From IMG/VR virus record IMGVR_UViG_3300032297_000372, positions 27,614 through 91,613 of that record: 64,000 bases of DNA; one strand, given 5' to 3'. The notes beneath the pieces were generated by a model. That model saw only the letters and a program-made list of their open reading frames with translations. It did not search any database and was not told where the DNA came from. This document shows positions 18,301 to 60,693 of the stretch, piece by piece. The DNA is from a virus. A program made the translations under genes and the position numbers. Numbering within the stretch: position 1 is the first letter of the stretch; each line of letters starts with the position of its first letter.

Positions 18301-21300
18301 GGCACCATATTGCTTGTGTTAAATCTGGAAATAATGGTTATTTGTTTGTTGATGGTGTACTAGAAGATAGTGCAACTGGTTGGAGTAGTATAAATTCCAC
18401 AATGAGTGAAGGTATAATTGGTAGATCAAATTATGCAAATGCTACTCTTAGTGATAATGCATATACAGGTTATCTCAAAAATATTAGAATATTAAAAGGT
18501 ACAGCATTATACACAAGTACATTTACACCTCCATCAACAGTAAGCGCAATCGCAAATACAGTTTTATTAGTAAACGGATCAACAATTACTGATAGTAGTA
18601 ATCTAGCTTTATCATTCACTGCAATTACTGTACTGCCTAGTATATCTACAGAAACAATAGGAGCAACATATGAAACGGGCAATTTAACTTACAGTATCGC
18701 ACCAAGTTTACCAACAGGATTAACACTCAATACTGCTAATGGATTTATCACCGGTAATACAGCACAAACAATAATTGCCAATACTTACACAGTTTCAATT
18801 GGTGATGAAATTGGACAATCATCAAGCAACACTTTCGTAATGAGTATTGTAACTCCATTAAGCATGAGTACAAGTGATACTGAATTATCTGTTGGTATTG
18901 GATCTAGTTTTAGTTCTACACCTGCAACAGCAACAGGTGGTGTTGGAACAATAACTTATAGTATAGACGGATTAGGTGGCAATACTTTACCTTACGGATC
19001 TACGATAAATTCATCTAATGGTAGAATTTCGGGATTAGTCGCTGTCGAACCTGGAAGAGCAGCTAATGCATATCCATTATTAAGTACGATTAAAGTAGTT
19101 GCTAATGATAGTTCTAGCCAGCAAGCTTCAAGTGCTAATATACAATTTACTGTTCGTGGTCCATCAGTACCAACATCAATTACAAGTAGAGCTGTTCGAA
19201 GTGTTATAGCAAATACAACATATGCATCAATCAATATTGGTGTAGTGACTGGTGGTTTAGGAGACCTGAAGGGATACATTGTACCTGTATCTCTTGGAGA
19301 ATCAAATGCTGCTCTGCATCCATTAGCGTTCTCAAATGCTGTTCCGGGTATGACATGGACATTTGATCCTGCATCTAACACAGTATTCGTTTCAGGCACA
19401 CCAACAAAAGCAATTGGTTTCCAATATGGTGTAACAAATAATTTCTTAGGTATACTCATCGAGCCATCAACAACTAGAAGTTTTTATATTCAAGGATTCG
19501 ATGGAACTAGAAATAGTGGTAAAGGATTTAATAGTAGTTTCGAGTTCAACGTTCAAGCATCACAATTCTATGCTAATACAACAACATCAGTTGTAGTGTT
19601 TAATACGAAAACCTCGAATACATTTACACCTATAACCGTATCTGGTGGTTATGGAGTAAATGGAAAAATAACATTCGCATTATCTGGAAATACATTGCCT
19701 GCTGGATTATCATTCAGTAATTCTAATGGTGCAATTACAGGTACAGTTTCAAATGTTTATGTTTCGAATACATTTACAATAACTGCTAATGACGATTCCT
19801 TCCAATCAGCATCGAATACATTTACATTACGAGTTGATGCTAGCCCATTAGGAACCATATTATCCGAATCAACAAAAACTCTTGCGTTAAATACTGCAAC
19901 GAATTTCACAGTGGTAACAGCAACAGGTGGTGCTGGAATAATAAGCTTTGCTTTAAGTGGTAATACTTTACCTAGCGGTTTAACATTTGAAACTTCTAAC
20001 GGTGCAATTATAGGTACACCAACAGTTCTATTAACTGGAAATACCTATACAATTACAGCGAGTGATTCTGTAAGTAATACATCTGCACAAACTTTTGTGT
20101 TGATTGTTGAAGAGCCAGTATTTAAATATCAGTTAGCTGATGGTGGTTGGATTGCTGATGCTTCTCCTTTAGCTTCTCCAATTTCTTTAGCTACAGTAAG
20201 TCAAACTGGATCACCAACTACAACCAATTCTCCGACAATCAGTACAGATACACCAGCGACTGCGAATGCTTATAGTTTAAATACAGTGTTTACTAAGTTA
20301 TTCTACTCAGGAACTAATACTGGATACTTCTTAAATACCGCACCAAATCCAGCATACACATTAGGAAATAGTGATTTTACTGTTGAAGCTTGGGTTAAAT
20401 TAACAAACTCCACTTTTGGTCGAGAACAGTTATTGGTAAGAAAAGGTACATTATGGGATTATAGTATGGAAGGTGGTGATCCTGCTACCGCTACCGAATT
20501 TACAACATCAAATTCAACAGCAATAGTGAGACTGTCTGAGTATGGTTCTAGGAACGCACAATTCGATCCGTTCTTTAATGTAGATGCATATGATAATTAT
20601 GATATAGCAACTTATAGTGGAAAATGGACGCATTTTGCTTTAGTATTTAAGGCTAACACATCAGGCACTACTATTTCAGGAACTAATGATGTGGATGCGG
20701 GTACAGTAACAATCTTCCTCAATGGTCGACCATATTATACTGAACTTGTACCTTACGCATATGGTGACAATACCATACAAGTTACGGATCCTAGTTTATA
20801 TAATATTGATTTTGGTGGAAATACAGGATTTAATTTTGCACAAACATTAGGTAAAATTTATAAACTGAAAATAAGTGATAAAGTTGTTTATCCTGTTAAT
20901 GAATATTTCACACCTACGCCTGATTATGGTGTAGATTCTAATACATTATTCTTCCTAGATGTTGCAGATTCAAGTAATAATTACTACACAAATGCTAATA
21001 ATTATACTTCGCAGATTAAACTTGTTGATTTTGTGGCTAATACTATGGTAAATCTCGAAAATAATAATGAAGATTCTTTAGCTAATACTATTACTTTAAG
21101 TGCAGATATACCTTCTGGAGGAAATATCAGTAGTAATAGTTCTCAGACTACAGCTAATGGAAGTGGGTTTGGTTGGTTTATCCAAAACTATTATTATAGT
21201 TATCTTAATAAAGCTGTTTATAATGTGTATAGTCAGAATTGGACAGTAGAATCATGGTTTAAGTGGTCAACATCAAATTTTGCCAATACACAACAACAGG

Positions 21301-32878: not shown

Positions 32879-33352
32879 ATGATAACTATTGATGAGTTTG
32901 AGAATTTTATACAACATGATTTGGTATATGAACAAAAGTTAATTTCTATACTGGATGACCTAGGTCGACAAATTTATATTGATGATCTAGGTCAACTTCA
33001 TTCCAACTACGGTAAAACCGTAAAAGTTGAGGGTATGGAAAAATATAATGCACAAATATATGACACATGTTGTGAATTGCAATACGTATATAATCATAAT
33101 GGTGTCGTGACTTGTCATGCTTTCAGAGCTTATGAAAATTCTGCAAGTTTTGGAACTCATACTGATCCTGATGATGTTTATATACACGTTATTTGGGGAG
33201 AAAAAACTCTTCAAATAAAAGATGAAATTCACATATATCGTTCTGGTGAAAGTGTATTCATACCTTCTAATACCCCACACAAAGCTATAAACGAAAAAGA
33301 ATCTTTAATATTAAGCTTTGGTCTTGAAAAATTTCTAGTAGATAAATTATGA
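32879..33352 (+). CDS. JmjC/cupin-like Fe(II) oxygenase
   Basis: The 157-aa protein has a double-stranded beta-helix signature: His94-Thr-Asp96 in FGTHTDPDD, then GEKTLQIKDEIHIYRSGESV, then IPSNTPHKA with His134. This is the HxD...H iron-binding triad of JmjC/cupin-type Fe(II)/2-oxoglutarate hydroxylases. Residues 60-70 include a Cys-Cys pair (DTCCEL). It starts one base after the fibre stop and overlaps the next radical-SAM gene by 4 nt, so it is the first gene of the cassette. It may hydroxylate a residue on the cassette's substrate. A metal-binding cupin without oxygenase activity is the alternative. Activity and substrate are inferred. Confidence 0.68.
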   Translation: MITIDEFENFIQHDLVYEQKLISILDDLGRQIYIDDLGQLHSNYGKTVKVEGMEKYNAQIYDTCCELQYVYNHNGVVTCHAFRAYENSASFGTHTDPDDVYIHVIWGEKTLQIKDEIHIYRSGESVFIPSNTPHKAINEKESLILSFGLEKFLVDKL

Positions 33353-34407
33353 ATTGGATGTTTTATTTAAAGACCACTGAAACATGTAATTTAAATTGTA
33401 AACATTGTTTCACTAATGGCATTAATGGTCCTAAAATTTTCTGGAATGCCATAAAGATTACTGATTGGATTAAACGTTTCAGAGCATATTACCCATCTAA
33501 TTCTGATTCTATACATTGTGAATTTCACGGTGGTGAGCCGTTTTTAGTTCCTGTTCATGAAATGCGTCATGTGTGGGAAAATTGTAAAGACTTGTGGCCT
33601 GCCATGACTTGGGGAGCAACAACGAATTTAGTATTTAAGATGGATCAAGAACATTATGATTTTATAGAAGAAGCTTTCGATAATAGAATAGGAACTTCTT
33701 GGGATCCTAAAATTAGATTTGCCAATAATAAACAATATAAACTTTGGCATAGTAATGTTAAAAGCCTATTGAATCGTGGCGTAACTGTAAAACTTTTTAT
33801 AAGTGTAACACAAGATACATTAAATATAGAACCCATAGTATTGTTACGTTGGATTCGTAGGTTAGGTGTACAAGAAGTTTCGTTTGAGAGATTAACTCAG
33901 AATGGTAACGCTAAAAAATATCCTGAAATATTTCCTAACAATATTGAACAAGATAACTGGTTTCTAAAATTATACGAACAATCTGAGAAATATGGTGCCA
34001 GAGAATGGTTCGATAATGAATTTTTAGAAGTAATTTATTCAAAATTTGATACCGGATTCTTGAAAGGTGGAACTTTCTGTAGAGATTGTGAAGAAAAGAT
34101 ATTCACTGTAAATGCTGACGGTACATTATCAGGATGCCCAAATTCTGCTCCAGAATTTCAATTTGGACATATAAATGATAATCTGGAAGATGTTATAAAT
34201 AGTGAAAGAAGAATAGAAAATATATCATGTGAACGTAGTAGAGATCCTAGATGTTTTTCATGTGATGTGTTTGAATATTGTGGTGGAGACTGTCATCAAT
34301 TAGAATGGCAAAATGATGTTTGTGGAGCTCCAAAAAGTTTAATGAGATATTTAAAAAATAAACAAAAAAATAAAGTTTGGATATTAAAAAATGGCAACCT
34401 TAACTAA
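33349..34407 (+). CDS. Radical SAM/SPASM maturase 1
   Basis: The 352-aa enzyme has the radical-SAM motif C13-NLN-C17-KH-C20 for a 4Fe-4S cluster and a SAM-binding GGEP at 61-64. The C-terminus fits the SPASM consensus exactly: Cys247 x10 Gly x4 Cys263, then Cys302-x2-Cys305-x5-Cys311-x3-Cys315, and Cys325, with an extra Cys244. SPASM proteins use two auxiliary clusters to modify peptides or proteins (sactipeptide thioethers, PQQ, His-Xaa-Ser systems). It ends 17 nt inside the start of the 181-aa Cys-His-Xaa-Ser protein, making that the best substrate candidate. Family membership is firm; the reaction is unknown. Confidence 0.9.
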   Translation: MNWMFYLKTTETCNLNCKHCFTNGINGPKIFWNAIKITDWIKRFRAYYPSNSDSIHCEFHGGEPFLVPVHEMRHVWENCKDLWPAMTWGATTNLVFKMDQEHYDFIEEAFDNRIGTSWDPKIRFANNKQYKLWHSNVKSLLNRGVTVKLFISVTQDTLNIEPIVLLRWIRRLGVQEVSFERLTQNGNAKKYPEIFPNNIEQDNWFLKLYEQSEKYGAREWFDNEFLEVIYSKFDTGFLKGGTFCRDCEEKIFTVNADGTLSGCPNSAPEFQFGHINDNLEDVINSERRIENISCERSRDPRCFSCDVFEYCGGDCHQLEWQNDVCGAPKSLMRYLKNKQKNKVWILKNGNLN

Positions 34408-34936
34408 TAATATTAACCCTCAAAATATCGTTGATAGATTTGCTGATTATGTGACAGCCACAGCTAGTGCAGGAATTACATGGGGAACTAATGCTAAACC
34501 CTTTAGTCAATTTGATGCGGGTTATCTTGGAGGAACAACCGCAGGTAGACCTATTGGTATATCAGGTGGAAATATTTCTGCTGTTGGTGGAACAATCACA
34601 GCTTCAGCAATTTACAACACTCTAGTTAATGAAACCGCACAATATACTTCTATTAGAAGTTTAAGAGCTATTCTACATTTAACCGGATCAGGCAACCAGT
34701 TCGATCAAACAGCTATTGCTTATATGAGTTATGGATCGTATGGGCAGAGTATTGGTTCACCAGCAAATGCTGGCGTCTCAGCAGGATCGACAATAACTAG
34801 TAGTGGTTTAGAATCGCTTTTTAATAATTTAAGATCATCGTATAATACTGCAAGAGCAGCCACAACTACGATAACTGTTACTGTTTGTCACACATCGTGT
34901 CATTCATCCTGCCACGGTTCTAGAGGAAGAAGATAA
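34391..34936 (+). CDS. Candidate modified substrate with C-terminal Cys-His-Xaa-Ser array
   Basis: The 181-aa protein has a Gly/Ala/Ser/Thr-rich body (residues 1-160) that looks like a virion or decoration protein, with no signal peptide. It ends at residues 166-181 in CHTSCHSSCHGSRGRR. The array consists of three tetrads, Cys-His-Xaa-Ser (Cys166, 170, 174; His167, 171, 175; Ser169, 173, 177), followed by an Arg-rich tail. All three cysteines of the protein lie in this array. The design recalls His-Xaa-Ser (HxsA) proteins modified by the radical-SAM enzymes HxsB/HxsC. The gene overlaps radical-SAM gene 1 by 17 nt and the next gene by one base. The substrate role is an inference; a metal-binding tail is the alternative. 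Confidence 0.75.
   Translation: MATLTNNINPQNIVDRFADYVTATASAGITWGTNAKPFSQFDAGYLGGTTAGRPIGISGGNISAVGGTITASAIYNTLVNETAQYTSIRSLRAILHLTGSGNQFDQTAIAYMSYGSYGQSIGSPANAGVSAGSTITSSGLESLFNNLRSSYNTARAATTTITVTVCHTSCHSSCHGSRGRR
34886..34933 (+). other. Cys-His-Xaa-Ser coding array
   Basis: Sixteen codons encode three CHxS tetrads and an RGRR tail at the extreme 3' end of the 181-aa gene. Codons vary between tetrads (TGT/TGT/TGC for Cys; CAC/CAT/CAC for His), so the pattern is held at protein level and does not come from recent DNA duplication. Confidence 0.85.
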
Positions 34937-35652
34937 TGAATATTGTTGAAACTACTGCACCCATCTCGATTGAAAATTTAAAAAAATATTTTAATGACCA
35001 GACTACTTTTTTTGTTATTGATTATAAAGACAGTAGTTTAAAAGGAACAAAACTATTAACATATCTTTCGAATTTAGATATACCTTCTGACATAAACTTT
35101 ACAGGTTGTTCTAGTGATGAATGTTTTGATATGATTAAAGAATACCTACATTCTACAATGATTGTTAATATTCCTGCACTTGAGTCGGCAGTTATCAATA
35201 TATTACATCAAACTAAAAATTTAGTTCCAGTAACAGATAAAAAATTTATTGACGATAATAAAGAAATTTTAGATAAGTGGATTTCAAAACTAGAAAGTTT
35301 ATCCCTATTCAATATGCATATTATTGGAAACGGAATGTTCAAAGAATTTGTTTCTGAGTTTGAAGTCGATGCATCAACTGAATTGATCGGTGTTAATTTT
35401 ATTAGTTTATTAAAGAATGAACATTTTTATTCTTTCTATAATAATACCGATAAAAAATCATTAAAGTTTTATACACATTATTTTAATGATTACATGTTCA
35501 AAGGTAAAAATATGTATTCATATTGGGCTAATGAGAATAATCCTTTATTTTTATTGACATACGGTATTTCAGAAGGCCTTGTAGAAGGAAATTCTTATAA
35601 CTCATACAAACAAAAAACAATCGAGGAATTAGAAAATGTTACACCTGTTTAA
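34936..35652 (+). CDS. Unrecognised cassette protein A
   Basis: I do not recognise this 238-aa protein. It starts on the last base of the stop of the candidate substrate gene (TAATG), so it is likely translationally coupled to it. The sequence is rich in Lys, Asn, Phe, Tyr and Leu, has no cysteine motif beyond Cys59 and Cys64, no signal peptide and no obvious membrane helix. It looks mixed alpha/beta and soluble. Its place directly after the CHxS protein and before the second radical-SAM gene suggests an accessory role such as substrate binding. That is inference only. Confidence 0.55.
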   Translation: MNIVETTAPISIENLKKYFNDQTTFFVIDYKDSSLKGTKLLTYLSNLDIPSDINFTGCSSDECFDMIKEYLHSTMIVNIPALESAVINILHQTKNLVPVTDKKFIDDNKEILDKWISKLESLSLFNMHIIGNGMFKEFVSEFEVDASTELIGVNFISLLKNEHFYSFYNNTDKKSLKFYTHYFNDYMFKGKNMYSYWANENNPLFLLTYGISEGLVEGNSYNSYKQKTIEELENVTPV

Positions 35653-36730
35653 TAAAGTTTACTTAGAGTTCGATGATAGAATAGAAAATCATCTAGATCG
35701 AGTTGTTATTTCAGAACAATACGGAGATCAAATGTATGATCTTTTGGAAAAAGCTGTTCTTGGAAAATTAATACTATATGGTAAAAGTTTCGAAGAAGTT
35801 GTTGGTGACGACTTTTTAGGATTCATAAAATCAATAAAAGAATATGGTGATAACTCTGGTAAAAAAATCATTATTTTCTGTGATAGAACTTCATACAAAA
35901 AATTTATGGCTCATTGGTTTAGATCAACATTACCTAATTTAGATTATGACGGATTTAAAACTATTGTAGATCATACGATTTATAATCAACGAATAATTTC
36001 GAATACCCAACTATCTTCAATGTTCAGTGTTAATCTAAATTCACTATGGGAAGATTTGGATGATATCGAATCTGCGTGGGCAAACGCACAATCTGTAAAT
36101 AGAACCTCGTTGAAATCTTTGAATTTAAATCATACATATGAATTTTTATTATCAACTTATTTGTCTGGTGATAATTCACATAAAGAAGCCTTGAAAAAAA
36201 CATTGCACATGTTTTTACGCCGTTGGTTTATAGAAATGTTTGTTGACAATCGACAAATGGTTTTATTGAATCTTAATAACCATAAATTCTTAAGCACATT
36301 TAATATTGATCCTAAATTGATAGATTTAACTCGTTTAGATCCTTTAGATGTAATAGAACAATTTGAATCTTACTCCGATGATGAAATATGGGAGAGAGAT
36401 GAGAATGCTTATGGTAAATGTAAATTGGAAGGTTTGAGTGAAGAAAAATGTCTAAAGTTGATGGACACTTTATATAATGTTTTTGAAAAATTTGAGGGTA
36501 TGCAAATCGACCGTAGTGTTTTTGGAATTAGAAAATATGTTACTTTAACAACTCGTGAAAGTATAACAGATGCTGAGATGGATGACATATTGGATTTTGT
36601 TATCAATAATCCTTTCGACACTTCTCTAGTTCCACGTGTTGATTTTCAAAATGTTAATTTCACTTTAGTGCAATATTTTCTGACTCAAAAATACAATAAA
36701 AAAGATATATCGAAATATAGATTGTTGTAA
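35636..36730 (+). CDS. Unrecognised cassette protein B
   Basis: This 364-aa protein overlaps protein A by 17 nt and ends one base before radical-SAM gene 2. I recognise no family. It is acidic and mostly helical, with residues such as HMFLRRWFIEMFVDNRQMVL in the middle (about residues 190-215) and a C-terminal FTLVQYFLTQKYNKKDISKY segment. No metal or nucleotide-binding motif stands out and there is no signal peptide. Gene order suggests a partner of the neighbouring radical-SAM enzymes or a scaffold that holds the substrate. Function unknown. Confidence 0.55.
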   Translation: MLHLFNKVYLEFDDRIENHLDRVVISEQYGDQMYDLLEKAVLGKLILYGKSFEEVVGDDFLGFIKSIKEYGDNSGKKIIIFCDRTSYKKFMAHWFRSTLPNLDYDGFKTIVDHTIYNQRIISNTQLSSMFSVNLNSLWEDLDDIESAWANAQSVNRTSLKSLNLNHTYEFLLSTYLSGDNSHKEALKKTLHMFLRRWFIEMFVDNRQMVLLNLNNHKFLSTFNIDPKLIDLTRLDPLDVIEQFESYSDDEIWERDENAYGKCKLEGLSEEKCLKLMDTLYNVFEKFEGMQIDRSVFGIRKYVTLTTRESITDAEMDDILDFVINNPFDTSLVPRVDFQNVNFTLVQYFLTQKYNKKDISKYRLL

Positions 36731-36731
36731 A

Positions 36732-37784
36732 ATGCGTGATTTTATTATTGAACGTAAACGTGATATTGAACAAGAATATACTTTACATCTTTTTGAATAT
36801 TGTAATTTAAGATGTTCTTTTTGTTGGCAAGACCATGAAAATACAATTGGAATTGATACTGTAATTGAAAAATTAATTCCAATTGAAAAATTCTTACAAA
36901 CAGAAACTCGCCATTCAGTAATATTTAATGTTATGGGTGGTGAGGTTTTTGCTCCAAAAATATTCAATACCGATCTACTCAATGCCTATAAAGAATTAAT
37001 ATCAGGCATAAAACAACTTGAAGGTAAATACAATAAAAAGATAAAGTTAAATTGGGTTACTAATTTAGTTACCGATAAGATCGATCTTATAGAGTCTCTT
37101 TTATCTTTTTCAGAATCGGTCAAGCTTGAATCTAATCTCGTAACATCTTACGACCCTCGTGGCAGGTTTAATGTTAATGACTTCTTAACGTTTAAGAAGA
37201 ATATGGAATACTTTGGTAAACGTATTACATGCATAAGTATGTTGTTGAGTTCGCCTAATATAGATTACATACTTAAAGATAGAGACAATTATTTCAAAAA
37301 GTTGTATAATGAAGGTTATTACATATATTTTGATTACTATATGCCTGACGAATCTGCGGAGTTTCAATCACCTACAGATCAACAACTGAGAGATGTTTTT
37401 AGACATTTTATTGATAATTATCCCAATGTATATCCTATTAAAGATTGGATACAAAATGAAACTAATTATGCATCATGTAGAACGAGTAAATTAATACTTG
37501 CAGACGGAACGATGTGTAATTGTGGTAATTTAGTACAAGATGAAAAAGTTATAAAATTTTATTCATCTAAAATACAAAAAATGGATAACTCAGAAATTGA
37601 AAATAATTTCTTAGAAAAATATGATTGTGTTTCGTGTGAGTATCTAGATAGATGTAGTTTTGGTTGTTTCATGCAACATGATTATAAATTTAGGGAAGAA
37701 CTTGATGAGTGTGTCTATAAACTTACGCACAGATACATCGATGATGTTAGATTACAACGAGGAAGAAAAGCCTCTATCGGTTGA
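36732..37784 (+). CDS. Radical SAM/SPASM maturase 2
   Basis: The 350-aa enzyme carries C24-NLR-C28-SF-C31 and a GGE motif at residues 69-71. A preceding 20-residue extension is unusual but short. The C-terminal part has a full SPASM-like set: CRTSKLILADGTMCNC (Cys x9 Gly x4 Cys), then CVSCEYLDRCSFGC (Cx2Cx5Cx3C), and a later Cys in DECVYK. It therefore likely carries two auxiliary Fe-S clusters like maturase 1. It is clearly diverged from the other radical-SAM proteins here, which suggests a different step or site rather than a simple duplicate. Substrate unknown. Confidence 0.88.
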   Translation: MRDFIIERKRDIEQEYTLHLFEYCNLRCSFCWQDHENTIGIDTVIEKLIPIEKFLQTETRHSVIFNVMGGEVFAPKIFNTDLLNAYKELISGIKQLEGKYNKKIKLNWVTNLVTDKIDLIESLLSFSESVKLESNLVTSYDPRGRFNVNDFLTFKKNMEYFGKRITCISMLLSSPNIDYILKDRDNYFKKLYNEGYYIYFDYYMPDESAEFQSPTDQQLRDVFRHFIDNYPNVYPIKDWIQNETNYASCRTSKLILADGTMCNCGNLVQDEKVIKFYSSKIQKMDNSEIENNFLEKYDCVSCEYLDRCSFGCFMQHDYKFREELDECVYKLTHRYIDDVRLQRGRKASIG

Positions 37785-38280
37785 TGTACCTAAACATATT
37801 GAAGTTTCGTTAGATACTGTACCAATTGCATATCCTTATTTGCCACGATTATGTGGTAGGCAAGGATATGTTTTTATGTGGCATACTACACGTGACGTGG
37901 AACCAGATTTATATGATTTATCACAAAGTGTAAAAGATGAAGAACAGTGGTTTACTACTAAGGATCCAAACGGTATCGAAAAAGTTTTATCTCTTGTACA
38001 TGAATATGATGATGAAGTCGTTATTGGTTGTGTAAAATCCGCAGGTTATTTAAAACACAAGCCTAACGAATATATCAATAAACTAATAAAGAGTGCCTGG
38101 AAAGATTTAATATCTATATTCGGTCATAAGAGAATTATTTGTCCTAGCGGTTCGTATTTACAGTATGTGCATTTGTGTCTTAACCAGAAAAAAATACCTC
38201 ACACACCATATTCCAAAAAGTTAATGATGAGAAATAAATTTTATAGAGATGGTTACTATTGGATTCGAGACGGTCGTTAA
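37705..38280 (+). CDS. Unrecognised cassette protein C
   Basis: The 191-aa product is read from ATG 37705, which has an AGGGAAG purine stretch just before it (37692-37698). An earlier in-frame ATG at 37660 lies deeper in the radical-SAM 2 gene. The chosen start still overlaps that gene by 80 nt. The C-terminal half (HKRIICPSGSYLQYVHLCLNQK-like segment, then KIPHTPYSKKLMM and DGYYWIRDGR) looks like a compact alpha/beta domain; an acyltransferase-type fold is possible but not supported by a clear motif. It ends with TAATG overlapping the next oxygenase start. Function unknown. Confidence 0.55.
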   Translation: MSVSINLRTDTSMMLDYNEEEKPLSVDVPKHIEVSLDTVPIAYPYLPRLCGRQGYVFMWHTTRDVEPDLYDLSQSVKDEEQWFTTKDPNGIEKVLSLVHEYDDEVVIGCVKSAGYLKHKPNEYINKLIKSAWKDLISIFGHKRIICPSGSYLQYVHLCLNQKKIPHTPYSKKLMMRNKFYRDGYYWIRDGR

Positions 38281-38717
38281 TGATATTACATAATATTCTC
38301 ACAAATGAAGAGTGTAAATTTATATTGAATATTTTAATAGACAAATATCCAGAGCTATTACATTCGAATAATCATATTGAAACAGAAGATGAATCTTTAA
38401 ATTTCATCACAATGATACCTAAAAGTCATGTTGAAAATTTAGGCAATCCTTTGTGCCTTGTACTATTAAGTACTGTTAATGATAGAAGTGATTATGCAGG
38501 AAAAGAATGGCATGTGGATGGTGATCCTGATGAGACAAGTGTAATTTTATATTTAAATGGTAATAATGAAAGTGGTGGAGAATTTGTAACCGAAACGGAT
38601 AAGTATAAATTCGATATTGGATCGATGATAGTTCTTCGTTCTGATAAACTACATAAAGTAGAACCTTACAATAATGATAATGCAAGGATCGCTATAAAAT
38701 GGAAATTTAAATCATAG
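38280..38717 (+). CDS. 2OG-Fe(II) oxygenase-like protein 1
   Basis: The 145-aa protein is read from ATG 38280, which overlaps the previous stop; a longer in-frame start at 38259 is less likely. Residues 78-80 (His-Val-Asp in EWHVDGDPDE), then VILYLN and SGGEF, then SDKLHKV with His125 and an NARIAIKW segment with Arg136 give the HxD...H...R layout of 2-oxoglutarate/Fe(II) dioxygenases of the prolyl-hydroxylase type. It is at the short end for the family. It is followed directly by radical-SAM gene 3. A protein or peptide hydroxylase acting on the cassette's substrate is the working inference. Confidence 0.75.
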   Translation: MILHNILTNEECKFILNILIDKYPELLHSNNHIETEDESLNFITMIPKSHVENLGNPLCLVLLSTVNDRSDYAGKEWHVDGDPDETSVILYLNGNNESGGEFVTETDKYKFDIGSMIVLRSDKLHKVEPYNNDNARIAIKWKFKS

Positions 38718-39743
38718 ATGGATTTGATAATTAAGCCTACCGAAAGGTGTAATTTTAAATGCACTTTTTGTTCGAGTACAAATATAACTGAAGATAAGTC
38801 TATGGAGTTAGACTTAAATTATATCTATGAATTCTTAAAACGTTTTCCCGAAACCAATACTATAATTGTTAATGGCGGCGATCCATTAATGATGGATCCT
38901 CAATACTATTGGGATTTAATCAAACACCTGGATGAGATTGGTTCACATTCTACCATCTCTTTCACCAGTAATCTTTGGCCATTTTATAAAAATCCTAACA
39001 AATGGAAAGACTTATTTAATCATCCACGAATGGGAGTGACCACATCTTTTCAGTATGGTGGAGGTAGATTGAAAGGTGATCTATCTGAATTTACTGAAGA
39101 AGATTTTTGGAAATGTAGTAATGCGATGTTAGAACATTGTGGTTATAGGCCAGATTTTATTAGTGTTATCACTGAAGAGAATGAACATCAAGCTATCAAG
39201 AATGTAGAACTTGCTAAACGCATGAGTGTTGAATGCAAACTTAACTATGCAATGAGTAGTGGTCCCCCAGTTAAATTTAAAGGCATCATAATGGGACAAC
39301 AAGGTAAACCATATTTGCTAGCAAACATCTATGAAATATATGTTGAGATATGGAAAAAAGGATTATATCCTTGGGAATTTAACACTAAACAGATGATGAA
39401 ACGATTGAAGGGTATGAGTACTTGTTGCCCTCAAAATAGAGAATGTGATGGTGGAATTAGAACATTACAACCATCAGGAGATTATTATTCTTGTGGAGCC
39501 TTTGGAGATGATAAACAATTTCCTATAAATTTTAAACAAGAAATGAATGGGTCTAAAATTTTCCCTATCCGTTCTATTCAAGAATTACAAACCATGACAG
39601 ATGACTGTTATACTTGTCCTATGTTTGAGATATGTAACGGTTGTAAAAAAACTATTAAAGACCATAAAGATTATGGTTTGGCAGAAACCCATTGCCGTAA
39701 AATGAAAACACTATCAAATGATATTATACAATCTAATCAATAA
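38718..39743 (+). CDS. Radical SAM/SPASM-like maturase 3
   Basis: The 341-aa enzyme starts with MDLIIKPTERC; the cluster motif is C11-NFK-C15-TF-C18. A GGDP motif (NGGDPLMM, about residues 53-60) replaces the usual GGEP. The C-terminus has CDGGIRTLQPSGDYYSC (Cys x10 Gly x4 Cys) and CYTCPMFEICNGC, which is Cx2Cx5Cx2C, one residue shorter than the standard SPASM Cx2Cx5Cx3C. A final Cys occurs in ETHCRKMK. It may hold modified auxiliary clusters. Its stop overlaps the next oxygenase gene by 26 nt. The radical-SAM assignment is firm; the reaction is not known. Confidence 0.88.
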   Translation: MDLIIKPTERCNFKCTFCSSTNITEDKSMELDLNYIYEFLKRFPETNTIIVNGGDPLMMDPQYYWDLIKHLDEIGSHSTISFTSNLWPFYKNPNKWKDLFNHPRMGVTTSFQYGGGRLKGDLSEFTEEDFWKCSNAMLEHCGYRPDFISVITEENEHQAIKNVELAKRMSVECKLNYAMSSGPPVKFKGIIMGQQGKPYLLANIYEIYVEIWKKGLYPWEFNTKQMMKRLKGMSTCCPQNRECDGGIRTLQPSGDYYSCGAFGDDKQFPINFKQEMNGSKIFPIRSIQELQTMTDDCYTCPMFEICNGCKKTIKDHKDYGLAETHCRKMKTLSNDIIQSNQ

Positions 39744-40236
39744 AGGATATTATCTTTGTAGAGATAATGAACCATTTCAATTTATAGATATCAACACGAT
39801 TGAATGGACAGATAAAGGTACTATACCATTAAGAATGGTTAAAAGAACTGAGTATGTAGAACAAATACTTTCAACTACACAAAAATTTCTGGCTGAGAAA
39901 TATGTTCGACCGATATTTGGTGATTATCACATGGACTATTGCGATCTTGTCAATGGTATGGATGATAATGTTTATGAGTGGCATAATGATTATGAGGAAG
40001 GCAAAGTAAATCTTGGTATACTTTTGTACTTCTCAGATACAGATGAAGAAATCGGTAGCGGTATCGGATTTAGAAATCCTGAAACCAAAATAGAACATGA
40101 CTTTTTTTATCCAAAATCTGGTGATGTATGTTTTCTAAATCATACCACCAAATTCGAACATAGAGTAACTAAACAAAAAATACCAATTCCTAGAATAGTA
40201 GCAAGTTTCCATTATCATGTTGACTCTCTCAATTAA
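39718..40236 (+). CDS. 2OG-Fe(II) oxygenase-like protein 2
   Basis: The 172-aa protein has His89-Asn-Asp91 in YEWHNDYEEG, then VNLGILLYFSD, a YPKSGDVCFLNHTTKFEHRV segment with His148, and Arg159 in IPRIVASFHY. This is the HxD...H...R set expected for Fe(II)/2-oxoglutarate oxygenases. It overlaps both neighbours (26 nt with radical-SAM gene 3, 20 nt with gene 4), so each oxygenase in this part of the cassette is paired with a radical-SAM gene. Likely a hydroxylase acting on a peptide or protein; substrate unknown. Confidence 0.73.
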   Translation: MILYNLINKGYYLCRDNEPFQFIDINTIEWTDKGTIPLRMVKRTEYVEQILSTTQKFLAEKYVRPIFGDYHMDYCDLVNGMDDNVYEWHNDYEEGKVNLGILLYFSDTDEEIGSGIGFRNPETKIEHDFFYPKSGDVCFLNHTTKFEHRVTKQKIPIPRIVASFHYHVDSLN

Positions 40237-41146
40237 TCCTTGGTATTACTGTAACTATAGATGTGAATTTTGTTACTTAACCGAAGAACAATTATCAGAT
40301 AAAAAATTACTTGATCTTGATCGTTTATCTGAAATGCTTGCGGAAGTTTCTTCACAGTCTAAAATTATGATGGTCGATCTGTATGGTGGAGAATTAGGTT
40401 TACTTCCGAAAGATTATTGGAATTCTTTGATCGACTTACTACACATTTACGGTATATACGATATCAACCTAATAACAAATCTTTCGATGGTTAATGATAT
40501 TACCACAGATGAAAGAGTTTATACCTCGGTCAGTTTTGATTTTGAAGCACGTGAAGACTACCAAAGGGTTTGGCGAAATATGGCCATGTTGAATAAACCT
40601 TTTTCGATTTTGATGTTAGCTTCTCCGAATCTTATTATTAAAGACGTTGGTGAAATGATACAGACTCTTAACGTTCTTAAAAATTTAGAATCTGTTGAAA
40701 TTAAACCCTACAGTACTAATCAGAGTAATCAATTAAACATTAAATACAGTGAATATGAATCTTTTGTGCAAAAGTGGATTACTTATTCTGATAAAAACTT
40801 TTCATTTACAAATGAACTATTGATCGAATCTGTTCTTGATAAAACTCGAAACAGTTTTTCTGACGATCACATTTACATTACTCCAGAAGGTAAATACGGT
40901 GTTTTAGAGTTCGATCTAAATGATAATGAATTCTTTTTGGAATACGATACGTTAGACGAATATTGGCAATGGTGTGAAAAGGAAAAGCATAGAGTTGGGT
41001 TGAATAAATATTGTTCGAATTGCGATTATTACGGTAATTGTTTATCTGAACATTTACGTGAAGTGAAATCGTTGGATGAAAGTTGTAATGGATTTAAAAA
41101 CCTTATAGATTGGTATAAGAATGATCGATTCGGAATGGAAAATTAG
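40217..41146 (+). CDS. Radical SAM maturase 4 with degenerate SPASM
   Basis: The 309-aa enzyme has C12-NYR-C16-EF-C19 and a GGE motif (DLYGGELGLLP, about residues 55-65). The C-terminal auxiliary region is reduced: the strand equivalent to the first SPASM half (ITPEGKYGVLEFD) has no Cys. The second half reads CSNCDYYGNCLSEH, keeping Cx2Cx5C but with His where the fourth Cys is expected, followed by a Cys in DESCNGF. It therefore probably binds one auxiliary cluster, possibly with a His ligand. This differs from the other three enzymes and could indicate another chemistry. The ligand idea is inference. Confidence 0.86.
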   Translation: MLTLSINPWYYCNYRCEFCYLTEEQLSDKKLLDLDRLSEMLAEVSSQSKIMMVDLYGGELGLLPKDYWNSLIDLLHIYGIYDINLITNLSMVNDITTDERVYTSVSFDFEAREDYQRVWRNMAMLNKPFSILMLASPNLIIKDVGEMIQTLNVLKNLESVEIKPYSTNQSNQLNIKYSEYESFVQKWITYSDKNFSFTNELLIESVLDKTRNSFSDDHIYITPEGKYGVLEFDLNDNEFFLEYDTLDEYWQWCEKEKHRVGLNKYCSNCDYYGNCLSEHLREVKSLDESCNGFKNLIDWYKNDRFGMEN

Positions 41147-41537
41147 ACAAGAAATATTTCATCGATTAAACACAAATCATGATGATGATTTAAAATTACA
41201 TCATGTTGTTATTGATGAAGATATCATTCAATCTTCTATAAAATATTTTACAACCACAGAATTGGGGTGGGTATATCCAGCAAAAAGTTATGTTGTCGGT
41301 ATATGTTATGCGAGATGGATTAGTCATTATTTTCAAGAAAGTTTTTATGAGGTCTTAGATGACCCTTCATTATTATATAATAATGATCCTTATTTTGTGC
41401 CTTATAAAGACGATAAATATACTTATGATTGTATAATATCTCAGATAGGTCTAGACTTTGACGAATCGTGTGGTATTATACCAGATATTAAAAGTTATTT
41501 TTTGAAAGAGTTTCAATTAGATGAATCATGGGTTTAA
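41121..41537 (+). CDS. Unrecognised cassette protein D
   Basis: This 138-aa protein overlaps radical-SAM gene 4 by 26 nt and the last oxygenase by 17 nt. It is acidic and rich in Tyr, Asp and His, with no signal peptide and no clear motif. It has a central GICYARWISHYFQESFYEVL helix. The size is compatible with a small peptide-recognition or accessory subunit, like those found beside radical-SAM maturases, but no sequence match supports that. Function unknown. Confidence 0.55.
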   Translation: MIDSEWKIRQEIFHRLNTNHDDDLKLHHVVIDEDIIQSSIKYFTTTELGWVYPAKSYVVGICYARWISHYFQESFYEVLDDPSLLYNNDPYFVPYKDDKYTYDCIISQIGLDFDESCGIIPDIKSYFLKEFQLDESWV

Positions 41538-42096
41538 TGACTTTTGGCCAACTACTTTTTATCAGGGTAAAATAGAAGATGATAAAATTTTAGAAGACTT
41601 GGCTAATGAATTTTTTTCTATAAGAAACTTTGACCAAGATTATTCTGAGAAGAATAGTTTTAATTTATTCGACCTAAAGACAGACTCAATTTTAAAATTT
41701 AAAAATGATATAGTTTATCCTGCGTTTAAACTATACCTGAGTAAAGTTTTTAATCAAAATATAGATGATTTTGGTTACAAGATGAAGTCTTGGTTTAACC
41801 AGTCTAGTCTACCTAGTCATAATCATTCTGGCGCACATTTAAGTGCAGTTTTTTATATTTTGTGTAGTAACCGAATAGATGAAGGAAATATCATATTCAC
41901 GGATCCTAGAAGCAATTCGAATCGTGGATACCCGTTGAGTTTTCAAAATATTTTTGAGCCGGTAGTATATCAACCGGTGATGGGAGACTTTATAGTCTTT
42001 CCTAGTTTTGTGTATCATTATGTTAGTGCTTGTTCGTCAACTCATAGATTATGTGTCCCAGTAGATTTATTTTTAGAAAATAAAAAGGTAAAATAG
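41521..42096 (+). CDS. 2OG-Fe(II) oxygenase (Oxy_5-like)
   Basis: The 191-aa protein resembles the 2OG-FeII_Oxy_5 family. It opens with NDFWPTTFYQGKI; residues 99-112 read SHNHSGAHLSAVFY with His100 and His102 (the HxH variant common in that family), then GNIIFTDPR, GDFIVFPSFVYHYV with His166 and a HRLCVPVD segment with Arg176. It is the last gene of the cassette and is followed by 41 non-coding bases that hold a CTAAATA motif. Proteins of this family are frequent in marine T4-like phages near fibre or structural genes; their substrates are unknown. Confidence 0.8.
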   Translation: MNHGFNDFWPTTFYQGKIEDDKILEDLANEFFSIRNFDQDYSEKNSFNLFDLKTDSILKFKNDIVYPAFKLYLSKVFNQNIDDFGYKMKSWFNQSSLPSHNHSGAHLSAVFYILCSNRIDEGNIIFTDPRSNSNRGYPLSFQNIFEPVVYQPVMGDFIVFPSFVYHYVSACSSTHRLCVPVDLFLENKKVK

Positions 42097-56500: not shown

Positions 56501-57448
56501 ATGGCAACAAACTTTTATTTTAATAACTTTCCTGCCAATCAAGTAACCGAGGAACAACTTTTAGTTGAAGATTTGGTTATTGAAGCAATGCAAATATATG
56601 GCATGGATGTTTATTATTTACCAAGAACATCTCGTGATCCTGACGGTGAAGATATGTTATATGGTGAAGATACTCTGAAACAATATGTTAGTGCAGTTCC
56701 AATTGAAATATATTTGGAAAATGTCACTGGTATGGATGGTGACCAAGATTTTATTTCTAAGTTTGGTTTAGAAATACGTGATGAAATTAAAGTATTAGTA
56801 TCTCGTAGAAGATTTAAACATGAAATAGGTACTGCCAATTACAATGTTGCTAGAATTGGTGGGTTAACAGCAGCTAATAATACTGCACCAAAAAGACCTA
56901 GAGAAGGTGATTTAATTTTCATACCTTTATTACGTGGTTTCTTTGAGATTACTTTTGTAGAACATGAAAACGATCAAGCAATGTTTTACACTTTAGGTCG
57001 TGGCCGTGGTGGTAATGTTTATGTTTATGCATTAACTCTCAAACAATTTGTAATGTCGGATGAAATTATAAACACAGGTCGCAGTGAAATTGACGATCAA
57101 GCATTCGACTATTATCGTAAGACGAGATTGCCTGTAACTGTAGGTTCAGGTACATATTTGCAAGGTGAGATTGTTTATCAAGGTTCAACTTTAGCCAATG
57201 CTAATGCTCAAGCCATAGTACATACATGGACTGGTAATTATGTGGATGTCATTCGAGTAAATGGTTCATTCGCTAATGGAGAATTCTTAAAAGGAAATAC
57301 CAGTGGTGCGGTTTATACTACCTATGCACCAGACGATATGTCAGTATTTGATAATACATTTGAAGATGCTACAGATAATTATAGAATAGAAACCGAAGGT
57401 GAAGGCATTATCGACTTCACAGAACATAACCCATTTGGTGAGCCATAA
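56501..57448 (+). CDS. gp14: Neck protein gp14
   Basis: The 315-aa protein (T4 gp14 is 256 aa) begins with NFYFNNFPANQVTEEQLLVE, then GMDVYYLPRTSRDPDGEDML, typical of gp14. Residues about 110-170 include KRPREGDLIFIPLLRGFFEI and EHENDQAMFYTLGR. Residues about 215-275 are a short beta insert (GSGTYLQGEIVYQG, then FANGEFLKGNTSGAVY) that accounts for the extra length. It overlaps the gp15 start by one base (ATAATG). It works with gp13 to close the neck. Confidence 0.92.
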   Translation: MATNFYFNNFPANQVTEEQLLVEDLVIEAMQIYGMDVYYLPRTSRDPDGEDMLYGEDTLKQYVSAVPIEIYLENVTGMDGDQDFISKFGLEIRDEIKVLVSRRRFKHEIGTANYNVARIGGLTAANNTAPKRPREGDLIFIPLLRGFFEITFVEHENDQAMFYTLGRGRGGNVYVYALTLKQFVMSDEIINTGRSEIDDQAFDYYRKTRLPVTVGSGTYLQGEIVYQGSTLANANAQAIVHTWTGNYVDVIRVNGSFANGEFLKGNTSGAVYTTYAPDDMSVFDNTFEDATDNYRIETEGEGIIDFTEHNPFGEP

Positions 57449-58227
57449 TGTTACATAACGAGTTTTTTTATAATAGAACAATTAGAAAAATTGTTGTGGC
57501 ATTTGGTACAATTTTCAACGACTTACAAATCATTAGATTTACTAAAGCAGGCGTAGAGAAAGAAAGAATTCGAGTACCATTATCTTATGGTTCTAAAGAG
57601 AAATACATGACTCGACTTTTGGCAGATCCAGATTTACTCAAGTCTGTCAATACGGTTGTTCCTAGAATTTCATTTGACATGACTGGAATGGCATATGATC
57701 CTTCCAGAAAACAAATAACAACTGTTAAAAACTTTGCAACTAACAATTCTGCGACAACTTTGAAGTCTCAACGTATGCCTGTACCATATACGTTTGATTT
57801 TTCGATGTCGATTTATGTTAGAAATACTGAAGACGGTACACAAATACTAGAACAAATATTGCCATTCTTTACACCAGATTATACTGTATCTGTTAAATTT
57901 AATCCTACGATGGGTGATGCTGGTACTAAAGATATGCCTATTACATTGAATTCAGTATCTAATGAGGTTGATTATGAAGGTGATATGGCTTCAACCAGAT
58001 TAATTATTTGGAACTTAGAATTTACAGCAAGAAGTTTCATATGGCCTGCCATCAAAGAAGAATCTTATATTCGTAATGCAAATTCTAATGTCTATATTGA
58101 AACTACAACAACTAGTAATGTGACGACTAGTAATGTGGCTTTATTCTTTCATACTGAATCTGATAATGCTGCGGCAATGATAGATGATGAATTTGGGTTT
58201 GCGGATACTATAACTTACTTAGTTTAA
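57448..58227 (+). CDS. gp15: Tail completion and sheath stabiliser gp15
   Basis: The 259-aa protein (T4 gp15 is 272 aa) has FFYNRTIRKIVVAFGTIFND at its start and KERIRVPLSYGSKEKYMTRL at residues about 36-55, then PRISFDMTGMAYDPSRK (about residues 71-87). These segments are diagnostic for gp15, the hexamer that terminates the tail tube and sheath and joins the neck. It lies in T4 order between gp14 and gp16. Confidence 0.93.
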   Translation: MLHNEFFYNRTIRKIVVAFGTIFNDLQIIRFTKAGVEKERIRVPLSYGSKEKYMTRLLADPDLLKSVNTVVPRISFDMTGMAYDPSRKQITTVKNFATNNSATTLKSQRMPVPYTFDFSMSIYVRNTEDGTQILEQILPFFTPDYTVSVKFNPTMGDAGTKDMPITLNSVSNEVDYEGDMASTRLIIWNLEFTARSFIWPAIKEESYIRNANSNVYIETTTTSNVTTSNVALFFHTESDNAAAMIDDEFGFADTITYLV

Positions 58228-58236
58228 TATATAATT

Positions 58237-58617
58237 ATGAAAAAATTAAATGAAAAATTATCAGAAGTTTTTGATGTGGAACCTATACAAGTTGAAAGTA
58301 ACATTGTCGAGGTCAAAGAACCTATAGAAGATGATGCGGATTTTGCTCGTCAGAATATTAGAGAATTGATAGATAAAGGTAACAAAGCAGTTGACGGTAT
58401 TCTTAATGTTGCCAAAGAATCTGAAAAGGCGAGAGATTATGAAGTCGCTGCCAATCTAATTAAAAGTCTTTCTGATTTGAATAAAGATTTAATGGAGATT
58501 CAGAAACGTAAGAAAGATTTGACAGGTAAAAAGAATGATGGTCCTATCAATGTTGATAAGGCTGTGTTCGTAGGTTCAACTAACGAATTAATGAAACTTT
58601 TAAAAGATAATAAATAG
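58237..58617 (+). CDS. gp16: Small terminase subunit gp16
   Basis: The 126-aa protein (T4 gp16 is 164 aa) has a charged N-terminus and a central pair of helices (FARQNIRELIDKGNKAVDGI, then LIKSLSDLNKDLMEIQKRKK), which are the oligomerisation helices of gp16. The C-terminus (AVFVGSTNELMKLLK) is also typical. Gp16 recognises concatemer DNA and stimulates gp17. It is separated from gp17 by a Dps-like gene, which is not the T4 arrangement. Confidence 0.88.
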   Translation: MKKLNEKLSEVFDVEPIQVESNIVEVKEPIEDDADFARQNIRELIDKGNKAVDGILNVAKESEKARDYEVAANLIKSLSDLNKDLMEIQKRKKDLTGKKNDGPINVDKAVFVGSTNELMKLLKDNK

Positions 58618-58624
58618 GACTAAT

Positions 58625-59059
58625 ATGGAAACATTAATAACACAATTAAAAACTATTCTAGGAACAAACTTTGCTTTGTATTTTAAAGCACATTCGTTTC
58701 ATTGGAATATCGAAGGTTCAAACTTTCCACAATACCATGGTTTTCTAGGTGATTTCTACGAATCTGTTTTCGATCAGACAGATACTATTGCAGAACATAT
58801 TCGTCAATTAGATGCATATGCCCCTACATCTTTAGGAAGAATGTTAGAGTTATCTGATATACCAGAAACAACTAATATTCCACCAGCACTTGCAATGATA
58901 AGTGAATTAAAGAATGACAATGATCGTTTCATCATTCATCTACGTGCAGGTATTGTTGCTGCTGATGAAGCTGGTGAACCCGCAGTTTCTAATTTCTTGC
59001 AAGACATTTTAGCTAATCACCAAAAACACGCATGGATGTTACGTAGTATTATAAAATAA
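58625..59059 (+). CDS. Dps/ferritin-like protein
   Basis: The 144-aa protein looks like a small Dps family member. Its ferroxidase residues fit the inter-subunit Dps site: His26 (AHSFHWNIEG), His38 (QYHGFL), Asp53 and Glu57 (DQTDTIAEHI). The spacings of 12, 15 and 4 are those of classical Dps proteins. Dps shells oxidise iron with peroxide and protect DNA. It lies between the small and large terminase genes, with an AGGA sequence before the ATG and a one-base overlap with gp17 (TAATG). Possible roles include iron handling for the phage's iron enzymes or protection of DNA. The family is well supported; the role is inferred. Confidence 0.88.
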   Translation: METLITQLKTILGTNFALYFKAHSFHWNIEGSNFPQYHGFLGDFYESVFDQTDTIAEHIRQLDAYAPTSLGRMLELSDIPETTNIPPALAMISELKNDNDRFIIHLRAGIVAADEAGEPAVSNFLQDILANHQKHAWMLRSIIK

Positions 59060-60693
59060 TGAATGATGGTTATCTTGGTAATGTAAACCTTAAACGGGTT
59101 GGTGTCGAACTTTCATACACAGAGGAACAGGTAGCAGAAATATTAAAATGCTCCCAAGACCCCGTACATTTTATTAAAACTTATGTAAAGATTGTTCATG
59201 TTGATAAAGGCCTTGTTCCTTTTGACATGTGGAATTTCCAAGAAGATATGGTAAGTACCTTCAAGGATAATCGATTCATCATATGTAAAATGCCTCGACA
59301 GGTTGGAAAAACAACCACAACGGTCGGTTATATGTTGTGGTCTGTTTTATTCAGCGAGAATTATGTTGTAGGTATTCTTGCAAACAAAGGTCAATTAGCA
59401 CGTGACATTCTTGCTAAAATTCAATTAGCATACGAACATCTACCTTTATGGTTACAACAAGGTATCATTACTTGGAATAAAGGTAACATAGAACTAGAAA
59501 ACGGCTCGAAGATTTTTGCATATGCAACTTCTGCTGCTGGTGTCCGTGGTGGTACATTTAACTTAATCTTCTTAGATGAGTTTGCGTTCGTACCACATAA
59601 CATGGCACAAGAATTCTTCATGTCAACGTATCCTGTTATCTCTTCTGGTAAAACATCTAAAGTAATTATCGTTTCAACTCCTACCGGATTGAATCAATTC
59701 TATAAGATGTGGACAGATGCAATTGAAAAGAGATCAATGTATGTTCCTGTTGAAGTACATTGGTCTATGGTTCCAGGTCGAGATGCGAAGTGGCGAGATG
59801 AAACTATTCGGAATACCAGTGAAGAACAGTTTAGGCAAGAATTTGAAACTGAATTTATTGGTTCTACGGCAACATTGATCTCTGGTGTGAAGTTGAGATC
59901 ACTTGCGTTTCACACTCCTGTTAAGTCGGAGGACGGTCTGGACATCTATGAAATGCCACAGAAAGGTCACATGTACGTTTCATGTGTTGACTGCTCCGAA
60001 GGTGTCAACCAAGACTATTCTACAATCAATGTGGTTGACGTAACTCAAATACCGTACAGACAAGTGGCAAAATACCGTAGTAATAAGTTGCCTTTATTAT
60101 TGTTTCCGACGGTTATCTATTCGTTATCTAAAAGGTACAATGAGGCCTTTGCTTTAATTGAAACGAATAATATAGGTCAACAAGTGGTAGATGTGTTGCA
60201 TTATGACTTAGAATACGAAAACATCTACAAAATTGAACATCACCACATTAAAGGTCAAAGTATATCTGGTGGTTTTAAACGTGCGACTTCTTTTGGTTTG
60301 AGAACCACCAAATCCGTTAAAAAGATTGGATGTGCAAACTTAAAGACACTTATCGAATCTGATAAATTAATTATTAATGACTTTGACACCATTGCAGAAT
60401 TAAATACTTTTGCTAGGGTTAAAGATTCGTATGCTGCTGAAGAAGGTAATTATGACGACCTAGTTATGGGACTAGTTCAGTTTGCGTGGCTTGCAGCGCA
60501 GAATTATTTTAGAGATAGTACAAATATTGATATTCGTAGAGTTCTGGTTGAAGAAAACAACATGAGTGCAGAAGAAGACTTATTGCCAGTTGGTATTATA
60601 GATGATGGAAGACCAGAACCTACGGTTGATAGTAAAGGTATGGCATGGTATGACGATATAAGGGGTCAAGGATATACTCCCTCAAATTTCTAA
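59059..60693 (+). CDS. gp17: Large terminase gp17
   Basis: The 544-aa packaging motor (T4 gp17 is 610 aa) has the N-terminal segment VPFDMWNFQEDMV, Walker A at residues 80-85 (RQVGKT), Walker B with Asp173-Glu174 (FLDEFAFV), and a coupling motif (VSTPTGLNQFY). The C-terminal nuclease has the three expected acids, in VDCSEGVNQDYS, LIETNNIG and YDDLVMGLVQ. It cuts concatemers and translocates DNA into the prohead through gp20. The gene starts on the Dps stop codon. Confidence 0.97.
   Translation: MNDGYLGNVNLKRVGVELSYTEEQVAEILKCSQDPVHFIKTYVKIVHVDKGLVPFDMWNFQEDMVSTFKDNRFIICKMPRQVGKTTTTVGYMLWSVLFSENYVVGILANKGQLARDILAKIQLAYEHLPLWLQQGIITWNKGNIELENGSKIFAYATSAAGVRGGTFNLIFLDEFAFVPHNMAQEFFMSTYPVISSGKTSKVIIVSTPTGLNQFYKMWTDAIEKRSMYVPVEVHWSMVPGRDAKWRDETIRNTSEEQFRQEFETEFIGSTATLISGVKLRSLAFHTPVKSEDGLDIYEMPQKGHMYVSCVDCSEGVNQDYSTINVVDVTQIPYRQVAKYRSNKLPLLLFPTVIYSLSKRYNEAFALIETNNIGQQVVDVLHYDLEYENIYKIEHHHIKGQSISGGFKRATSFGLRTTKSVKKIGCANLKTLIESDKLIINDFDTIAELNTFARVKDSYAAEEGNYDDLVMGLVQFAWLAAQNYFRDSTNIDIRRVLVEENNMSAEEDLLPVGIIDDGRPEPTVDSKGMAWYDDIRGQGYTPSNF

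Follow-up and report, generated by a model that had tools for sequence, protein, structure and literature searches.

The interval between g15 and g18 of cyanomyoviruses is a hypervariable region that holds 4–14 inserted genes (review, PMC2984593). Cultured phages carry quite different cargo between gp16 and gp17, the genes for the small and large terminase subunits (TerS and TerL): a phytanoyl-CoA dioxygenase and a tryptophan halogenase in HTVC008M, an F5/8C protein in Melnitz, one unknown ORF in Mosig, three ORFs in S-PM2, and one ORF in S-SSM7. Dps proteins are likewise known from tailed phages, including Salmonella phage SE131, Lactobacillus phage Semele, Synechococcus phage S-SRM01, and the 'Gratiaviridae', which share the family phrog_3636. 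Their genes occupy other genome sites, e.g., beside thyX and a polymerase or in a non-core region of the cyanophage genome. For gut and Lactobacillus phages, the authors read Dps as protection against oxidative stress or iron (PMC8008677, PMC6669764).

We analyzed a 64,000-nucleotide stretch of an uncultured viral genome (IMG/VR record IMGVR_UViG_3300032297_000372, positions 27,614 to 91,613; hereafter, the window), in which a dps gene separates gp16 from gp17. Phage Dps, usually noted as a curiosity of single genomes, here is a persistent gene at one address through large divergence. In the open-license papers searched, we found no report of Dps between terminase genes or in virions, nor of a lineage with dps fixed in this slot. 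We consider it fairly likely that dps is a maintained cargo gene in the gp16–gp17 insertion slot of an uncultured T4-like (Kyanoviridae-related) lineage, and that its product acts late as a scavenger of Fe(II) and peroxide. Dps at fixed T4-like addresses would make iron and peroxide control during infection a selectable, testable trait.

Identification and Fold of the Dps Protein

The dps reading frame was confirmed as annotated, with an ATG start (Table 1). Its product matched the Pfam family PF00210 (Ferritin; E = 1e-22, 81 bits versus a cut-off of 24.5) and PHROG 3636 (E = 6.9e-34, 118 bits), and Dps proteins headed the sequence matches in the PDB, the best being Treponema TpF1 (2fjc; 1.8e-19). 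An AlphaFold (AF2) monomer model, calculated with 41 window and viral relatives as input, reached a pLDDT of 97.2. It comprises a four-helix ferritin-like bundle (residues 2–28, 34–61, 88–115, and 119–143) with a short helix in the B–C loop (70–76), a typical Dps trait. In a Foldseek comparison of this model with solved structures, the best matches were all Dps (TM 0.94–0.96; 0.94 for Dps 1n1q). The spacing H-x11-H-x14-D-x3-E turned up in approximately 0.1% of shuffles of the protein (98/100,000), and the identification therefore rests on the profile and fold matches rather than on the spacing. The product is a Dps mini-ferritin, as originally predicted for a gene between the two terminase subunits.

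Among bacterial proteins, the tail-less Dps (PF00210; B. brevis Dps 1n1q, TpF1 2fjc, H. pylori NapA, and L. innocua Dps) share the fold (TM 0.93–0.95), the short BC helix, and the His-His-Asp-Glu spacing with the phage protein. However, even the nearest of these are only 30–34% identical to it.

Table 1. Location of dps, its neighbors, and further features in the window (position 1 is the first nucleotide of the window).
Feature	Position	Strand	Basis or remark
Radical-SAM/2OG-oxygenase cassette	32879–42096		Pfam; 16 kb from dps
gp14, neck protein, late module	56501–57448	+	PF11649 8.7e-26
gp15, tail sheath stabilizer, late module	57448–58227	+	PF16724 3.8e-67
gp16, terminase small subunit (TerS), upstream neighbor	58237–58617	+	PF11053 8e-10, phrog_445 1.5e-32
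AATAAATA, T4/cyanophage late-promoter-like candidate	58609–58616	+	overlaps gp16 end
dps, Dps-type mini-ferritin, 144 aa	58625–59059	+	PF00210, phrog_3636, AF2 model, Foldseek PDB match
His26 codon, ferroxidase ligand	58700–58702	+	invariant in 75/75 slot homologues
His38 codon, ferroxidase ligand	58736–58738	+	invariant in 75/75 slot homologues
Gly42 codon, acidic fifth ligand of bacterial Dps missing	58748–58750	+	Glu in 78/79 bacterial relatives; acidic in 19/75 slot phage relatives
Asp53 codon, ferroxidase ligand	58781–58783	+	invariant in 75/75 slot homologues
Glu57 codon, ferroxidase ligand	58793–58795	+	invariant in 75/75 slot homologues
gp17, terminase large subunit (TerL), downstream neighbor	59059–60693	+	PF03237 8.8e-28, PF17289 2.4e-13

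Ferroxidase Site and Surface Charge

The original prediction named His26, His38, Asp53, and Glu57 as ferroxidase residues at Dps spacing. These positions are right: all four residues, as well as Trp27, are invariant among the 75 distinct slot homologues, and the same spacing is found in 79/79 bacterial relatives. In Dps proteins, an acidic residue four places past the second histidine usually serves as a further ferroxidase ligand (E. coli D67, L. innocua D47). This fifth position, missing from the prediction, is Gly42 in the window protein. Its equivalent is Glu in nearly all bacterial relatives, but most slot relatives carry a non-acidic residue (Table 1), L005 with Asp being an exception; S-SRM01-type sequences have Gly in 80/80 cases. 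The phage ferroxidase site is thus pared down relative to its bacterial counterpart, and Gly42 could lower activity, which poses a precise biochemical question. As the other family features are present, we treat the missing ligand as a variation of the site and not as a ground for exclusion from the Dps family.

DNA-binding Dps of the E. coli type have a Lys/Arg-rich terminal tail or a basic surface, both of which the phage protein lacks. We looked for such a tail at both termini and found none; helix A (METLITQLK) opens the sequence, and helix D closes it. With 10 Lys/Arg versus 18 Asp/Glu, the net charge is about −8. Owing to this charge and the lack of a basic tail, DNA coating by the phage Dps is unlikely. 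Of the two late roles originally proposed, shielding of DNA and collection of iron, the former, if by DNA binding, hence loses ground, and shielding by iron/peroxide chemistry is the best reading. On this reading, the protein would assemble into the usual hollow dodecamer, whose His2-Asp-Glu sites between subunits would oxidize Fe(II), with H2O2 as the preferred oxidant, and the ferric product would be stored inside. In a dying host with failing metabolism and slipping control of iron and redox state, removal of Fe(II) and H2O2 would curb Fenton damage to the DNA and enzymes of the phage, and replicated genomes would in this way be shielded until packaging.

Gene Neighborhood and Expression Signals

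Apart from dps, the locus follows the order gp13-gp14-gp15-gp16-gp17-gp18-gp19 of the T4-like late packaging module, as revealed by Pfam and PHROG matches and by synteny in >130 relatives. gp14 and gp15 lie upstream of gp16, and gp18 and gp19 downstream of gp17. Only 7 bases separate gp16 from dps, and the dps stop codon overlaps the gp17 ATG by one base (TAATG). Given its location within the late neck/packaging module and the overlap of its stop with the start of gp17, dps is most likely expressed at a late stage of infection, along with the terminase. We infer this timing from gene order and from a weak motif, ATAAATA, which occurs 12 times on the plus strand of the window and 0 times on the minus strand, often 11–53 bases upstream of late genes. 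In 44/75 relatives, a copy also lies no more than 60 bases from dps. The copy at 58,610 was considered as a dedicated late promoter of dps and rejected; it overlaps the end of gp16 and starts just 15 bases ahead of the ATG, and AATAAATA is probably too close to serve dps. Sigma-70-type promoters were rarer than in shuffled sequences.

Conservation of Dps between the Terminase Genes

Slot-type relatives were collected in several ways. In a Dps-anchored survey, 76/76 relatives at ≥65% identity adjoined gp16, gp17, or both, within the limits set by contig ends. An alignment search added 65 dps loci with both flanks and six with one flank cut by the contig end, and 0 elsewhere. Such surveys select for Dps, and a TerL-anchored survey is fairer. 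In the latter, dps was present between gp16 and gp17 in 64/73 loci with both terminase genes visible; the two genes were directly adjacent, without dps, in the other nine, a soft count since the records are mostly fragments. All slot-type relatives are uncultured IMG/VR contigs. The gene is therefore dispensable, being absent from about one in eight close relatives. Its position between gp16 and gp17 is a conserved trait of the lineage, and as most close relatives keep dps at exactly the same place, it is probably useful protective cargo and not an odd accident. Fusions of Dps to a neighboring gene were not found at the slot loci. Some relatives carry GIY-YIG-like homing endonuclease ORFs between dps and gp17 (L022:3011-3427, L057:8439-9011, L063:5153-5725, and L140:523-1098).

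In the TerL tree, loci without dps were nested inside dps-bearing loci. Moreover, a second, divergent Dps type (~45% identical to that of the window) was found in the same slot at several places among the first type. The simplest reading suggested by this pattern is an old presence of dps with some losses and with exchange of Dps alleles via the flanking terminase genes, although recombination of gp17 could yield the same pattern. For a common origin of both slot types, the AU test gave p = 0.067. dN/dS ratios of dps in 14 close pairs (about 0.04–0.20) overlapped the range of the structural neighbors, demonstrating purifying selection.

The original prediction also held that dps breaks the usual gp16-gp17 pair. 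The gene does split the pair, but splitting is usual in this phage group, as the cargo of HTVC008M, Melnitz, Mosig, S-PM2, and S-SSM7 illustrates; the closest isolates by TerL share 54.6% identity or less with the window. Like other cargo of this interval in cyanomyoviruses and pelagiphages, dps is non-core, missing in some relatives, and replaced by unrelated genes in isolates. The site itself is hence ordinary. What is unusual is that a single gene family persists: g15–g18 cargo varies from phage to phage, whereas dps has kept its place between gp16 and gp17 through most of a divergent lineage. A gene that simply landed in an insertion hot spot and brings no lasting benefit would fit the published hypervariability of the interval (PMC2984593), the insertion of homing endonucleases at the same slot, and the nine relatives without dps. 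However, dps is under purifying selection, its active-site residues do not vary, and it has persisted for long, with one Dps replaced by another; all of this speaks against such a passive passenger, which we regard as quite unlikely.

Dps at Other Genomic Sites

If Dps has a useful function that is not tied to packaging, it should also occur at other T4-like addresses. Two such addresses were identified. In a second T4-like group, with one Dps per record, dps lies in the replication module (gp45-gp44-gp62-regA-dps-hsp20-gp43), and gp16 and gp17 are directly adjacent. This group comprises L333-L377 (L076 type, e.g., L076:8001-8438), and its Dps differs from the slot type. At a third address, dps is found directly upstream of gp13 (L569:4289-4726 and L570:4924-5355); these two records additionally hold the radical-SAM enzyme of the cassette. 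The Dps of cyanophage S-SRM01, encoded in a non-core region, is 33% identical to that of the window, the highest identity among the phage-encoded Dps described previously. Dps is thus a recurring T4-like cargo, and its occurrence at several addresses implies that any benefit does not hinge on adjoining the terminase genes.

In our tree, the slot, replication-module, and several other phage Dps formed one virus-dominated clade (support 99/95) apart from other bacterial Dps. From bacterial MAGs, the clade took in only one long-branched sequence and one phage-like contig. One phage-like contig, L228 (CAIWHI010000271.1), is part of a Bacteroidetes MAG and probably represents a mis-binned phage; it encodes a Dps 47% identical to that of the window beside phage structural genes, with a T4-like TerL elsewhere. 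Recent capture from a host was considered and rejected, as the best bacterial matches among 84,980 bacterial and archaeal genomes were about 35–40% identical, the single 47% match being that on L228, and the slot Dps falls into the virus-dominated clade.

The fixed place between TerS and TerL, together with the position before gp13 in another lineage, raises the question of a capsid or packaging role, in which Dps would be co-packaged or, while packaging proceeds, attach to DNA or to the terminase. Several viral proteins annotated as 'Prohead protease' in BFVD (A0A6J7XDU5, A0A6J7WPK9, and A0A6J7WIS1) contain a Dps-like domain that matches the Dps fold over its whole length. The predicted structures suggest that these are Dps–prohead protease fusions, which would put Dps inside the proheads of other phages. 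Against such a role stand the missing basic tail and negative net charge, the nine close relatives that package without dps, the unrelated genes that fill the same slot in isolates, and the T4-like phages with replication-module dps, whose adjacent gp16 and gp17 have no dps there. We therefore consider a packaging role unlikely. A more specific variant combines it with protective chemistry: Dps made with the packaging motor would end up in or around proheads as an iron-free, peroxide-consuming shield loaded with the DNA. The prohead protease fusions elsewhere would then be related cases, and the lost fifth ligand would mark a viral Dps tuned for protection and not storage. This variant is a long shot.

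Rubrerythrin in the Same Genome

Searching the window's own record for ferritin domains, we found a second peroxide-type diiron protein, a rubrerythrin (PF02915, 2.2e-25), outside the window and near a phoH-like gene (G000:C1:18079-18516, corresponding to L312:4080-4517). Pelagiphage Mosig encodes a rubrerythrin 68% identical to it. Among 24 related records, mostly fragments, four hold a rubrerythrin, i.e., the window's own and G007, G009, and G016, so that Dps and rubrerythrin form no fixed pair across relatives.

Rubrerythrins reduce peroxide, and the presence of both proteins points to control of peroxide and Fe(II) more than to iron supply. The finding also bears on the proposal that Dps withholds iron, depriving the host of Fe(II) so as to disable its iron-dependent functions or defense, or exporting iron at lysis. 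The biochemistry would be identical to that of the scavenger we favor, but the rubrerythrin indicates peroxide handling, and we give iron withholding only a slim chance.

The Radical-SAM Cassette

The original prediction further linked dps to a cassette with at least eight probable iron enzymes, which would need an iron supply. The count was borne out by Pfam, with four radical-SAM proteins, three 2OG-Fe(II) oxygenases, and one cupin, several of which scored below the curated cut-off. The proposed link to Dps did not hold, as the co-occurrence survey of both loci was negative in both directions. Among the 24 related records, 20 of which have Dps by PF00210 search, the radical-SAM enzyme of the cassette was found in the window's own record only (1/24), and Dps-bearing records as long as 162, 161, and 105 kb had no radical-SAM match. 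Conversely, a ferritin-family match over the cut-off was obtained in 5/24 cassette-bearing records and in none of the other 19, and four cassette-bearing records of 133–174 kb had no such match.

A close sister contig of L002, from the same lineage, is the one other case in which the cassette enzyme and a slot dps occur together, and the pairing is hence a feature of this small lineage. This contig and the enzyme content of the cassette are what favors a Dps that stores iron for the phage's own radical-SAM and 2OG-oxygenase enzymes. Given the two negative surveys and the distance between cassette and dps, we consider such an iron supply highly improbable, and a general link between the cassette and Dps is largely refuted. 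Elsewhere in the window, the tail/baseplate region contains a single ORF of 4146 codons (9375–21815) with many repeated Ig-like and laminin-G-like stretches.
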